64,000 nt of DNA from Bacillota bacterium. GTDB lineage: Bacteria; Bacillota; Limnochordia; Limnochordales; DUMU01. Every line of letters starts with the position of its first letter. The stretch's first letter is position 1. The stretch spans positions 32,945-96,944 of the forward strand of contig DUMU01000020.1 of assembly GCA_012839805.1 (NCBI GenBank), in the 5' to 3' direction. The position numbers and the translations under genes are program-made. Positions 9,893 through 40,973 of the stretch are shown here, one piece after another. The notes beneath the pieces were generated by a model. That model was not told where the DNA came from. It made no database searches and was given only the letters and a program-made list of their open reading frames with translations.

Positions 9893-11398
9893 GTGGAAAA
9901 ATACCGGCGTCGTGCCGTTCCCAGGAGTTTCTTCAAAGAAAACCTGACCGCGGCCGAGATGCGTCGCAACATCCTCATCCTGGCCTGGCCTTCGGTGGCG
10001 AACCTCGCCTTGCAGACCCTGGTCGGGATGTTCACCATGATGATCATCGGCTCGCTCGGCCCGGCCGCCATTGCCGCGGTTGGACTCGGGAATCTCGTGA
10101 TCTTCATCATGATCGGGGTACTGGCCGCGCTTTCGGTGGGGACGACGGCCCTGGTGGCCCGCCGCATCGGTTCGGGGCGGGTGGGCCAGGCGGAGGAGGT
10201 GCTCCGCCAATCGCTCCTGGCGGGCGTGCTCGTAGCCGGCGTGCTGAGTGCCGTGGTGTTCATGCTGGCCGAGCGGCTCATCGACGCGTTGATGCTGAGC
10301 AACCACGACCGGGCGGTCATCGGGATGGCCACCCTTTACCTCAGGTATGTCTCGCTTTCGATGATCGTGGGCGTGCTGCTCTTCATGATCAACGGGGCGC
10401 TGGAGGGAGCGGGCGATACTCGTACACCCCTTTACATCATGATAGTGGTCAACCTCGTTAACCTGGCCGGAGCACTGCTCCTGGTCCGGGGGCTGGGGCC
10501 CTTCCCGGCCCTCGGGTTCAAGGGGGCCGCCCTGGCCGCGGTGGTGGCACGTGTCCTGGGCTCGGCCCTTGCCGTGGGATGGGTCGCCGGTCCGTACTCG
10601 GTCCTGCGCCTGCGGTGGCAAGGCGGCTTCCGTCCGGATTGGTCCACGATCCGCCAGGTTCTCGACATCGGTCTGCCTGCTTCCGGTGAACAACTGGCCC
10701 GCCTGGCTGCCCAGACCATATATACCGTTTTCATCGTCAACATGGGTACCTGGGTGCTGGCGGCCCACCAGATCACGGCCAACGTCAACTCTCTCGCCAT
10801 GTTGCCGGGCACGGGGTTTGCCGTTGCCGCCACTACCCTCGTGGGGCAGAGCCTGGGCGCCGGAAGCCCGGAAGTGGCCGCTCGCTACGCCCGGGAGACG
10901 AACAAGCTCGGGACGTTGCTCATGGCCTCCATTGCCGCGCTCTTCGGAGTGTTCACCCGGCCCTTCGTTTCCCTTTATACGACGGATCCTCAGGTGATCG
11001 CGCTGGCGGTGAGTACGGTACGGATCGTAGCGGTGGCGAGCATACCGTTCAGCATTGTCCTCATTACCAGCGGGTCGCTGCGCGGGGCCGGCGATACCAG
11101 GTTCGTGCTTTACACCACCGTGGCCGGTCAGTGGGGGATTCGCCTGGCCCTGACCTTCGCCCTGGCTCTGGGATTGGGTTGGGGGTTAGAGGGGGTTTGG
11201 GTCGCCATGCTCCTCGATCTCGTGATCCGGGCCGGGATCGTCCGCTGGCGGTTTGCGAGCGGGGCCTGGCGAACGGTCTTCGCCCGGCAGGAGGCCCGCT
11301 ACGATAGGCGCGGCGGGGTCCGAGAAGTGGATCTGAGCGGAGACGGGGAGCTGAGAGGTGGCGGCGACCCGGCCGGCCTCGGCCCTTCCGGCACCTGA
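9893..11398 (+). CDS. MATE-family efflux transporter
   Basis: ILAWPSVANLALQTLVGMFTMMIIGSLGPAAIAAVGLGN, GALEGAGDTRTPLY, SGSLRGAGDTRFVLY. Confidence 0.92.
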   Translation: MEKYRRRAVPRSFFKENLTAAEMRRNILILAWPSVANLALQTLVGMFTMMIIGSLGPAAIAAVGLGNLVIFIMIGVLAALSVGTTALVARRIGSGRVGQAEEVLRQSLLAGVLVAGVLSAVVFMLAERLIDALMLSNHDRAVIGMATLYLRYVSLSMIVGVLLFMINGALEGAGDTRTPLYIMIVVNLVNLAGALLLVRGLGPFPALGFKGAALAAVVARVLGSALAVGWVAGPYSVLRLRWQGGFRPDWSTIRQVLDIGLPASGEQLARLAAQTIYTVFIVNMGTWVLAAHQITANVNSLAMLPGTGFAVAATTLVGQSLGAGSPEVAARYARETNKLGTLLMASIAALFGVFTRPFVSLYTTDPQVIALAVSTVRIVAVASIPFSIVLITSGSLRGAGDTRFVLYTTVAGQWGIRLALTFALALGLGWGLEGVWVAMLLDLVIRAGIVRWRFASGAWRTVFARQEARYDRRGGVREVDLSGDGELRGGGDPAGLGPSGT

Positions 11399-34514: not shown

Positions 34515-36104
34515 ATGTTCTGGTTTTCCGATGACCTGGAGCGGGAGGAGCTGGAATCGCTGGCACGCGCAGCCGGTTATGCGGGTCTGGACATCCTCAC
34601 GCTTGCCCTCACCCCGGGTGAACTGCAAGTTAAGGTGCTTTCTCCGTTGACTCTTCCGCTCGGGGAAGGGAGCGAGCCTTACCATACCATCCTGCTGGTC
34701 TACGGTTTTCCGGGCCGGGCCGGATCGGAGGGCGGGTGGTCTGCTCCTGCCCTACCGGGTCTACCACCCTCAGCGGCCCACCTCTTCGACCTGCTGGCCG
34801 GCAACCTTTCCTCCCAAGGAAGCCTCTTCGTCGCCGGCCCACCTTCGCATCTGCCCCACTTCGGCCTGGAGCTCGAGAAGCGAGGATTTACTTTCAAGTA
34901 CTGGTATGCCGTGGAATGGCAGATGGAGACCTCCCCGGCGGTCGGGGGGCTTCCCACCGTTCACCTGGGAGTCCTGCATTATGTGCGCCGCCTTGCTCGC
35001 GTCACCATTGCCAAGGTGAGGATACCGCACCAGTATTGCCGCTTCTGTGGTGAACCGCTTGCCGACTGGGGCGGCAAGAAAGCAAGCCGCAATCCTGCCG
35101 GCCGGGTGATTTCCGATGTCTGGCTGCAGCTCGACGCCTGGCAGGATCGCCATGATTGGCGGCGGGAGGTCCTGCGGCGTCTCCTCTCCCTCGCCGCTCC
35201 TGCTTCGTCGTCCTGCCCGCCCCGGGCGCTGCTCGCCCGGCTGATCATGCCGGTTTCGGCCGCCGCGGCGCCTGCCTCTCGGAACGGCGGCTTGCCAGAG
35301 CGACCCGGCACGGGTGAGGTACCTCGGGATACGATCCTGCTCGGCGACATTCTGGAGGTGATCCGGCAGCTACCGGCAGAGAGCGTGGACCTGGCTTTTG
35401 CCGACCCGCCCTACAACCTGGACAAACGGTACAACCAGTACGAGGACGACCGGCACGACGAGGAGTACCTGGCCTGGTGCAATCAGTGGCTGCAAGAGTA
35501 CGTGCGCCTCCTCAAGCCGGGGGGTTCGCTTTTCGTGTTGAACCTCCCGAAGTGGGCAGTTCACCACGCGGTCTTTCTTGACGGTCTGCCCGAAATGCGA
35601 CGGCTGAACTGGATTGCCTGGGATGCTCTCTCGGAACCGCGGGGGCGGGTGATGCCGGCCCATTATGCGCTGCTCTTTTATAGCAAAGGGCCGCTGCCAC
35701 GGCATTTTCATCCCGGGCGGGCCCAGGTGCTGCCGCGTGGATACTGTTTTCGCGGCAAATGCGTCAAGGAACGGGCGGGGAAAGTGCCGGCAGCAGAATT
35801 GAACGACATCTGGTCCGATGTGCACCGGATCAAACACCGGCGGGACCGGGACGAGCATCCCTGCCAGCTGCCCCTGCGATTGATGGAAAGAATCATAAGT
35901 ATCGCGTCGGACGAAGGTGATCTGGTCTTTGACGGTTTCATGGGCACGGGGTCGACCGCCCTGGCCGCCCGGCGCCTCGGTCGCCACTACCTGGGGATCG
36001 AGATCGATCCGGCTTACATCGCGATCGCGCGGGCAAAGCTGGAGCAGGAAGCCCTTCAGCTGGGGTTGTTTCGAGGCGATACCTTATGCCAGGCTTGCCA
36101 GTAG
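34515..36104 (+). CDS. Beta-class (DPPY) DNA methyltransferase with N-terminal degenerate methyltransferase-like half
   Basis: DLAFADPPYNLDKRYNQY, FDGFMGTGSTALAARRLGRHYLGIEIDPAYIAIARAKL; N half GSLFVAGPPSHLPHFGLELEKRGFTFKYWYAVEW and CRFCGEPLADWGGKK; ATG at 34515 chosen. Confidence 0.85.
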   Translation: MFWFSDDLEREELESLARAAGYAGLDILTLALTPGELQVKVLSPLTLPLGEGSEPYHTILLVYGFPGRAGSEGGWSAPALPGLPPSAAHLFDLLAGNLSSQGSLFVAGPPSHLPHFGLELEKRGFTFKYWYAVEWQMETSPAVGGLPTVHLGVLHYVRRLARVTIAKVRIPHQYCRFCGEPLADWGGKKASRNPAGRVISDVWLQLDAWQDRHDWRREVLRRLLSLAAPASSSCPPRALLARLIMPVSAAAAPASRNGGLPERPGTGEVPRDTILLGDILEVIRQLPAESVDLAFADPPYNLDKRYNQYEDDRHDEEYLAWCNQWLQEYVRLLKPGGSLFVLNLPKWAVHHAVFLDGLPEMRRLNWIAWDALSEPRGRVMPAHYALLFYSKGPLPRHFHPGRAQVLPRGYCFRGKCVKERAGKVPAAELNDIWSDVHRIKHRRDRDEHPCQLPLRLMERIISIASDEGDLVFDGFMGTGSTALAARRLGRHYLGIEIDPAYIAIARAKLEQEALQLGLFRGDTLCQACQ

Positions 36105-38323: not shown

Positions 38324-40075
38324 ATGTCGATAACGGTGAAGTACGACGTCCGGGTGCCCATGCGGGACGGCGTCGAGCTTTCCACGGATCTCTATCTGCC
38401 GCAAGATGCGGGCCGGCCGGCGGCTCCCGGTTCACCGGTCCAGCGCTATCCGGCGATCTTGTTGCGAACCCCATACCTCAAGACGAGCCGGGAGGCTTTT
38501 GAACTGGGTGCGTACTTCGCCTCCCACGGTTACGTGGTGGTCTGGATGGATGTGCGGGGGCGGGGTGACTCCGACGGCCGCTTCGTTCCTTACCGCCACG
38601 ATGGCCAGGACGGCTACGATGCCATCGAGTGGTGCGCCCGCCAGCCCTGGTGCGACGGTAACGTTGGCACAATGGGCGGGTCGTACCTGGCCCGCATCCA
38701 ATGGTTGACCGCGGTCCTCCGGCCACCGCATTTGCGGGCCATGATCACCCTGGTCAGCCCCTCCGATCCGTTCGTGGAAGTTCCCACGGGGACGGAAGGC
38801 CCCATGCACATCTGCTGGAGGCATCTCGTGAGCGGCCGGGTGGTTCAAAACCTCGAGGTCGTCGACTGGATGAAGGTCTACGAGCATCTACCCCTCCTTA
38901 CCATGGACGAAGCTCTGGGCCGTTCACTCCCCGATTGGCGGGAGGCACTCTCCCATCCCACCCTCGATGAGTACTGGAAGCCCATCTGCTACCAGGATAA
39001 GTTCCACGAGGTGGACGTCCCGGTTTTACACATCTCCGGCTGGTACGACGATGAGCAGATCGGTACACTGCGGAACTTCATCGGCATGACACGAAACGGG
39101 CGGACGGCGGCCGCCAGGGCCGCGCAGAAGCTGCTGATGGGCCCCTGGACGCACCAGGTGAACAAGGAGCGCAAGATAGGTGAGATCGATTTCGGGCCTC
39201 AGGCCATAATCGACCTGCGCCAGTATGAACTGCGGTGGTTCGACTACTGGCTCAAGGGGATCGACACCGGGATCATGCGGGAACCGCCGGTGCGCATCTT
39301 CGTGATGGGGGTGAACCGCTGGCGAGACGAAAACGAGTGGCCCCTGGCCCGCACGCAGTGGACCCGCTACTACCTGCACAGCCGTGGCCGGGCCAACAGC
39401 CGCTTCGGGGACGGGTGGCTGTCGACCGACCCGCCGGCAGGCGCCGCTCGCCGGCATGGGCCACCGCCCCTTGAGCCCGAACCCGTGGCGGCACCCGAGC
39501 CTCCTGACTGCTACCTCTATGACCCGTCCCGCCCCGTCCCCTTCATCACCGATCCCACTTCGAGCCAGATCGGGGGACCGGACGACTATTCCGCCGTGGA
39601 GCGGCGAGACGATGTCCTGGTCTACACCTCTGCGCCCCTGGAGGAGGACCTTGAGGTGACCGGTCCGATCCAGGTCGAGCTGTACGCATCGTCGTCCGCG
39701 GTCGACACCGATTTTACCGCCAAGTTGCTCGACGTCTGGCCCAACGGGTTTGCCCAGCGCCTGGTGGACGGTATCGTCCGCGCCCGCTACCGCGAAGGTT
39801 TCGAGCGGGAGGTCTTTCTCGAGCCCGGGCGAATCTACCGCTTCAACATCGATCTCTGGAATACTTCGCATGTCTTCCGCCGGGGCCACGCCATCCGGCT
39901 CGAGATCTCATCGAGCGCCTTTCCGAAGTACGACCGGAATCTGAATACCGGCGGGCCCATTGCCACGGAAACCCGGATGGTCGTGGCCGAGCAGCGGATC
40001 TACCACGACCCGGAACACCCCTCCTGTGTGATACTTCCGGTGATCCCCCCGGGCCGGGAGGGACAGGGTGGCTAG
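38324..40075 (+). CDS. CocE/NonD-family hydrolase (X-Pro dipeptidyl-peptidase S15-like)
   Basis: VRVPMRDGVELSTDLYLP, VVWMDVRGRGDSDGRF, GNVGTMGGSYLARIQWLTA, HVFRRGHAIRLEISSSAFPKYDRNLNTGG; ATG at 38324. Confidence 0.92.
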   Translation: MSITVKYDVRVPMRDGVELSTDLYLPQDAGRPAAPGSPVQRYPAILLRTPYLKTSREAFELGAYFASHGYVVVWMDVRGRGDSDGRFVPYRHDGQDGYDAIEWCARQPWCDGNVGTMGGSYLARIQWLTAVLRPPHLRAMITLVSPSDPFVEVPTGTEGPMHICWRHLVSGRVVQNLEVVDWMKVYEHLPLLTMDEALGRSLPDWREALSHPTLDEYWKPICYQDKFHEVDVPVLHISGWYDDEQIGTLRNFIGMTRNGRTAAARAAQKLLMGPWTHQVNKERKIGEIDFGPQAIIDLRQYELRWFDYWLKGIDTGIMREPPVRIFVMGVNRWRDENEWPLARTQWTRYYLHSRGRANSRFGDGWLSTDPPAGAARRHGPPPLEPEPVAAPEPPDCYLYDPSRPVPFITDPTSSQIGGPDDYSAVERRDDVLVYTSAPLEEDLEVTGPIQVELYASSSAVDTDFTAKLLDVWPNGFAQRLVDGIVRARYREGFEREVFLEPGRIYRFNIDLWNTSHVFRRGHAIRLEISSSAFPKYDRNLNTGGPIATETRMVVAEQRIYHDPEHPSCVILPVIPPGREGQGG

Positions 40076-40157
40076 ACCCTACCGGTCCCGGCCGGCCGGT
40101 GGCCCGATGGTGGCGCGGGCGGGAGGAGCACCGGGGGGAACGGCGAATACCGGTGGC

Positions 40158-40973
40158 ATGACGCAAACCAAGGGGCAAGGCCGAACCCGGCGGCGGGCCA
40201 ACGAACTGGACGGCCGTACCTGGACCCGGTACTCGATCAGCGTATGGAGTGACATCCGCAAAAACGAAGCGGAGATCAAGCTGGGTCACCCGGCTATCTT
40301 CCCGGTTCAGCTGGTCGGTCGTCTTATCCAATGCTTCGCTCCGCCGGGGGAAGTGGTCGTCCTCGACCCGTTCGCGGGCAGCGGTTCAACCCTGGTGGGC
40401 GCAGTGGGGCTCGGTAAGGAAGCAATAGGCCTCGAGCTAATTCCCGAGTATGTGGAACTCGCCCGCCGTCGTCTCGTGAGCGAAGCCGGAGCGCTTACCG
40501 GACGCGCCCGGATCTACCAGGCCGATGCCAGGGAACTGTTGCGGTTCGTAGAGCCGAACAGTGTGGATCTGGTGATCACGTCGCCGCCTTATTGGAATGT
40601 CCTCTCCCGCAAGCGAACCTCCGATGGCAAAGCAATCCGGGATTACGTAGAGAATCCGGCAGACTTGAGCCGGATTCCCGGCTACGAAGAGTTCATCCAG
40701 ACCCTGGCGTTGGTTTTCCGCGACGTTTACACCGTGCTCCGGCCCGGTCGCTACTGCCTGGTGGTAGTAATGGACCTGCGGCAGAGGAGCCGCTTCTTTC
40801 CTTTTCACGCCGACCTGGCTTCGGCGCTGCAGGGGATCGGGTATGTTTTCGACGACCTCATCATCTGGGACCGGCGTCAGGAGTACAACCACCTGCGGCC
40901 TCTCGGATACCCCTCTGTCTTCCGGATCAACAAGGTTCACGAGTATATCCTGATCTTCCGTAAACCCGGCTAG
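40158..40973 (+). CDS. DNA methyltransferase (N4/N6-MTase, SPPY type, motif I before IV)
   Basis: VLDPFAGSGSTLVGAVGLGKEAIGLELIPEYVELARRRL then VDLVITSPPYWNVLSRK; ATG at 40158. Confidence 0.9.
   Translation: MTQTKGQGRTRRRANELDGRTWTRYSISVWSDIRKNEAEIKLGHPAIFPVQLVGRLIQCFAPPGEVVVLDPFAGSGSTLVGAVGLGKEAIGLELIPEYVELARRRLVSEAGALTGRARIYQADARELLRFVEPNSVDLVITSPPYWNVLSRKRTSDGKAIRDYVENPADLSRIPGYEEFIQTLALVFRDVYTVLRPGRYCLVVVMDLRQRSRFFPFHADLASALQGIGYVFDDLIIWDRRQEYNHLRPLGYPSVFRINKVHEYILIFRKPG

Follow-up and report, generated by a model that had tools for sequence, protein, structure and literature searches.

In the stretch of DNA analysed here (64,000 nucleotides, referred to as the window), a single gene (34515..36104, +) encodes a pseudo-methyltransferase half fused to an active-type beta-class methyltransferase (MTase) half, in one chain of 529 aa. 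The two halves are homologous, the features of a complete MTase are split between them by loss and retention, purifying selection acts on the N half, and the endonuclease that accompanies the gene in most of its relatives is absent here. From these observations we infer an intramolecular dimer, in which DNA would be recognized by the N half and modified by the C half. In our judgement it is rather probable that the dead N half supplies recognition in trans to the live C half, and that the protein represents a beta-class dimer, fused into one chain, that stems from a restriction-modification (R-M) lineage.

The gene starts with ATG at 34515 (+; all features described below lie on this strand, unless stated otherwise) and its stop codon ends at 36104; the same layout was found in 11 homologues. 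A congeneric protein begins at the same MFWF, which makes a longer GTG ORF from 34446 unnecessary, and GGAGGG is present upstream of the ATG; the start given in an earlier note on this DNA is therefore correct, and all of the strings quoted there are present in the translation. The C half (aa 269-529, 35319..36101) matches PF01555 (E 6e-46) and, among PDB structures, M.BceJIV, M.MboIIA and CcrM. It displays the motif order of the beta class (IV...VIII-TRD-X-I with DPPY or SPPY, as defined in PMC2890505): (i) motif IV, DPPY (35403..35414), invariant in C halves, (ii) the motif X region, HPCQLPLRLMERII (35856..35897), recognized by comparison of C halves, and (iii) motif I, DGFMGTGST (35931..35957), the SAM-binding loop, conserved in C halves. 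Judging from these motifs, the C half is presumably the enzyme proper, able to bind SAM and methylate DNA. The best match of the full AF2 model was M.MboIIA (TM 0.75 by target length), a superposition that is taken to be aligned to the C half; the pTM was 0.75 for the full chain and 0.75 for the N half alone.

The N half (aa 1-268, 34515..35318) ends in a low-confidence linker (aa 245-268, 35247..35318; pLDDT <50 at 249-266). When compared by BLASTP within the window protein, the two halves gave an E value of only 0.04, and with a signal this weak the by-eye alignment of the earlier note could not be trusted alone. Alignment of N- and C-half profiles by hhalign (12 homologues, including the window protein) nevertheless aligned 164 columns at 98.9% probability (E 3.1e-17) and placed YGFPG of the N half over DPPY of the C half, just as had been proposed by eye. 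An N-half HMM picked up the C half in each relative's genome (11/11, E 4e-11 to 5e-14) as well as M.MboIIA among PDB structures (E 8e-8), and the N half alone matched the PADLOC type II MTase profile PDLC03238 (E 2e-10). The homology of the two halves is thereby shown. The order of helices and strands in the AF2 models is the same in both. The model of the N half has a pLDDT of 68.8; its best Foldseek match was M.MboIIA (E 4.5e-6), it superposed only poorly on known MTases (TM 0.3-0.4), and all the Foldseek matches listed were MTases of the M.MboIIA, HpyAVI, CcrM, METTL3-METTL14 and MTA1 kind. For the predicted MTase fold of the N half, the sequence profiles are thus better evidence than the AF2 model. 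A Pfam match of the N half to DUF1122 (E 0.02) was under the cut-off and was treated as a chance hit. PHROGs contained no credible match to the N half (E 0.34), no relative was detected in viral contigs searched with the N-half alignment or in phages, and in plasmids the N half was matched by single-domain relatives only.

Comparison of 18 tandem proteins with the 18 single-domain relatives that could be placed in the alignment revealed a strict division of features. The catalytic DPPY and the motif I GxG of the SAM-binding loop are missing from all N halves (18/18), and the N half was classed as a pseudo-MTase on account of these losses; the earlier note had wished it to be checked for SAM-binding residues. 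The site of the lost motif IV in the window protein is HTILLVYGFPGR (34680..34715), which hhalign sets opposite ..AFADPPYNL of the C half and which coincides with a predicted strand (56-64). What every N half has kept is D[WY]GGK followed by SD[VI] (18/18, with W next in 16/18), whereas all 18 C halves carry DPPY and GxG and lack the GG block. The DPPF/GxG motifs and the DYGG block occur together in 18/18 of the single-domain relatives. In the window protein, conservation within the N half peaks at the DWGGKKASRNPAGRVISDVW block (35064..35123), for which the C half has no counterpart. This block lies within a retained, putative target-recognition segment (aa 158-211, 34986..35147) placed between the motif VIII strand and the motif X helix, which is where the TRD of beta-class enzymes is situated (PMC2890505, PMC4490356).

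Since the N half alone keeps the segment at the TRD position, lost from the C half, a role in recognition is well motivated. The fused pseudo-MTase plus active MTase of the earlier note is supported by the hhalign result, the N-half HMM matches, the split of motifs and the placement of the halves in the tree (see below). Its further suggestion, a built-in heterodimer with the dead half used for recognition, agrees with the retention of the segment, while the reading of DNA itself is deduced from sequence. Against this reading, the segment called TRD is short and putative, and the N-half model, with its pLDDT <70, superposes poorly on known MTases (TM 0.3-0.4). Alternatively, the dead half could be purely structural, a built-in dimer mate that stabilizes the active half while the latter reads DNA alone. 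There are precedents for such a partner, as MTA9 stabilizes substrate binding without a conserved catalytic site (PMC9174199) and METTL14 maintains the integrity of its complex and aids RNA binding (PMC5023411). However, the highest conservation in the N half falls on the TRD-position block and not on the core, and it is this very block that the C half has lost; we therefore regard a purely structural role as rather unlikely.

According to the proposed trans-recognition mechanism, two homologous beta-class amino-MTase domains would have been fused head to tail. The C half would bind SAM and carry out methylation, and the N half, presumably no longer capable of either SAM binding or catalysis, would pack against it in the manner of a beta-class dimer partner and offer its target-recognition segment (the CxxC-DWGGK-SDVW block) in trans. 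What EcoP15I Mod2 and similar homodimers share out between two subunits would thereby be shared out within one chain. This arrangement would have originated within a type II R-M family with a DpnII-like endonuclease, and in the Limnochordales lineage of the window the endonuclease would have gone and the MTase would have been kept as an orphan. The occurrence of the same endonuclease family beside both tandem and single-domain MTases was counted in favour of trans recognition. A more far-reaching version is put forward only tentatively: recognition and catalysis would be covalently joined yet separable, the recognition sequence would be determined in trans by nothing but the pseudo half, an exchange of N halves between family members would swap specificity, and the Limnochordales copy, having outlived its restriction enzyme, would set a stable orphan epigenetic mark.

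CcrM divides the work between its subunits, and so does EcoP15I, a type III R-M enzyme in which one Mod recognizes DNA and the other methylates it; the authors of that study argue that the TRD of a Mod is geometrically unable to serve its own active site (PMC4490356). EcoP15I Mod2, a beta-class homodimer, thus resembles the window MTase in the proposed split of labour and in the location of the TRD between motifs VIII and X (PMC4490356), but it consists of two identical active subunits, whereas in the window MTase a permanently dead half and an active-type half make up one chain, and a Res subunit is lacking. With the TRD-position segment in the N half and the chemistry assigned to the C half, the protein is what the EcoP15I model predicts for a fused, specialized dimer. 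It appears to combine naturally, in a single protein, the tasks that related enzymes distribute over two subunits. The claim that beta-class enzymes use one subunit for reading DNA and the other for methylation goes back to EcoP15I, but in a homodimer these roles cannot be mutated apart without engineering; the tandem family has in effect performed that experiment naturally, with the putative reading part in one half and the chemistry in the other, so that one gene suffices for a direct test of trans recognition.

An active MTase joined by a homologous partner with a degenerate active site is also known from METTL3-METTL14 (PMC5023411) and MTA1-MTA9 (PMC9174199), of which the tandem protein would be the bacterial counterpart from an R-M lineage. 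Those proteins, however, are eukaryotic, have DPPW, act on RNA or ciliate DNA, and occur as separate, unfused polypeptides with no link to R-M. The window MTase, with its DPPY and single chain, does not belong to the METTL3-METTL14 (MT-A70) group, and the likeness is one of analogy only. In the open-access literature (a scope outside which REBASE lies), no earlier description of a dead-plus-live single-chain MTase was found. Both MTase domains of M.FokI are active. M.FokI and MhoVII share with the tandem family two MTase domains in one chain and a place in type II R-M, but both domains of MhoVII are reported to be active (PMC12898733), whereas one domain is without motifs in 18/18 members of the tandem family.

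The ratio dN/dS was determined for four pairs of close relatives and amounted to 0.10-0.19 for the N half and 0.05-0.08 for the C half (the comparison of the window with L008 was unusable, because dS was saturated). The N half is therefore held under purifying selection, although it changes at two to four times the rate of the C half. Its faster evolution, the loss of motifs, and the half-decayed motif IV of L017, which still reads EFPY, are what one would expect if the N half were a functionless remnant, decaying within a tandem of two formerly active MTases. Such decay is rejected by the dN/dS values and by conservation, as the frame is open in all full-length members, distributed over three phyla, and the block is invariant; we consider it extremely improbable. 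A possible exception to the open N half is the tandem gene L148 (G951), where this half seems to be broken over two frames (448 aa + 85 aa) beside an intact C half, owing to a frameshift or an assembly error.

In the phylogenetic tree, the N halves form one clade (100/99) and the C halves another (100/95). The former group with single-domain MTases including those adjoining BamHI-type endonucleases (96/87), and the latter with L025-like single-domain MTases (96/88). A topology uniting N and C halves in one clade was mildly rejected (p-AU 0.024 and 0.018); one uniting N halves, C halves and L025 was not (p 0.124). Fusion of two diverged paralogues is thus somewhat favoured over self-duplication and at least as likely; in view of the long N branch it is graded as favoured rather than shown. 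The duplication assumed in the earlier note holds as far as the homology of the halves is concerned, but it need not have been a self-duplication, since the tree sets the N and C halves nearer different single-domain clades. Among the single-domain MTases with BamHI-type endonucleases, L059 and L061 (Geobacillus and Desulfocapsa plasmids) share the CxxC-DYGG-NPxG-SDVW block with the N half and have the beta-class motif order, but they consist of one domain with DPPF and the SAM motif intact, and their endonuclease is of another family. The closest neighbours of the C half in the tree are the L025-like MTases (Bacteroidota and Chloroflexota samples). Their accompanying DpnII-like endonuclease is a homologue of the one in the tandem systems; the MTases differ in that a single domain bears both the DPPF/SAM motifs and the DYGGKK block.

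Most relatives in Chloroflexota and Bacteroidota adjoin a DpnII-like restriction enzyme (PF04556), which was found beside the tandem gene in L009, L011, L012, L013, L015, L016, L018, L021 and L022 (L013 and L018 scored 31.6 and 25.0 bits, respectively, against a Pfam gathering cut-off of 23). The PF04556 match spans the C-terminal part only, and GATC is therefore not implied as the site. Homologous endonucleases adjoin the single-domain MTases L025, L145-L147, L149, L150 and L152; the one next to a second tandem subgroup (L032/L056, L151, L153) is divergent (E about 1e-5). The window MTase is flanked by a divergently oriented FAD oxidoreductase gene and a convergent glycosyltransferase gene. 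There is thus neither the adjacent Res helicase-nuclease of a type III Mod nor the cognate endonuclease that marks a type II R-M system and is present in most relatives. The neighbouring genes bear out the earlier remark that no restriction enzyme is adjacent, and searches of the window genome (G000) and of G002 gave no homologue of the endonuclease present in relatives. The window MTase is consequently a genuine orphan, although a derived one, as most of its relatives belong to R-M systems, and the orphan status in Limnochordales probably arose by loss of the endonuclease, which is the simplest explanation of its presence in relatives and absence here. In the congeneric L008, an ORF oriented against the MTase (10107-10547, -; G001 C2:2669-3109) contains, about 0.3 kb downstream of the latter, a 20-residue match (..ETTSSGQTTK.., with E about 1e-4 in the locus) to a motif of the DpnII-like endonuclease and is perhaps an endonuclease remnant.

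The proximity of a DpnII-like endonuclease in most relatives could also mean that the N half is an adaptor to another protein, such as this cognate endonuclease or a regulator. Yet Limnochordales have retained the N half although the window genome yielded no such endonuclease, and single-domain MTases paired with a homologous endonuclease manage without an extra half, so that we give this explanation little credence compared with recognition in trans.

Within the class, the tandem MTase was present in 3/3 sampled genomes of the family to which the window belongs and in 0/70 other genomes. The window and L008 have no common neighbour and L017 has two genes in common with the window at a distance; synteny therefore neither proves nor excludes vertical descent.

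As regards the methylated base, DPPY, usual for m6A, suggests this modification, yet M.BamHI makes m4C (PMC2890505) and MTases of the clade nearest the N half adjoin BamHI-type endonucleases. Palindrome avoidance was analysed in four endonuclease-bearing genomes (G156, G158, G265 and G423; 320-400 kb each). Many palindromes are avoided in them, but none consistently and specifically, and hence no recognition site can be inferred; the observed/expected ratios of GATC were 0.61, 0.97, 0.74 and 1.00, respectively.

The zinc knuckle reported in the earlier note was not upheld. The motif in question, CRFC (C175 and C178, 35037..35048), provides a single CxxC pair, whereas four ligands (CCHC or CCCC) are needed in one short motif, and the pair, invariant in tandem N halves, is missing in some relatives: both cysteines are replaced in the single-domain L149, L150 and L152, which have retained DYGGKK and still adjoin the endonuclease (motif IV is DQPF in L149). 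The C half holds a CxxxxC pair (CFRGKC, 35745..35762), which hhalign aligns with the CxxC of the N half. One may speculate that the four cysteines make one site shared between the halves, in loops modelled with pLDDT <50.

The second tandem subgroup (L032, L151, L153; about 600 aa) is more divergent, and its N half is further degenerate with CxxC and DYGGKK kept. Chloroflexota tandem MTases, including L013:7848-9548, have a homing-endonuclease-associated repeat (PF18780, E 6e-11) added at the C-terminus, which is missing in the window protein. Two further MTases were noted in the window genome. One, a PF01555 protein (window positions 40068-40973, +) encoded 4 kb downstream, has circularly permuted motifs (DPFAGSGST before TSPPY) and adjoins an S15 peptidase, with no endonuclease seen next to it. 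The other, L002 (G000 C2:20736-21407), is a single-domain protein with SPPY and FCGSGTT, encoded beside a prenyltransferase-repeat-like or glycoside-type protein.
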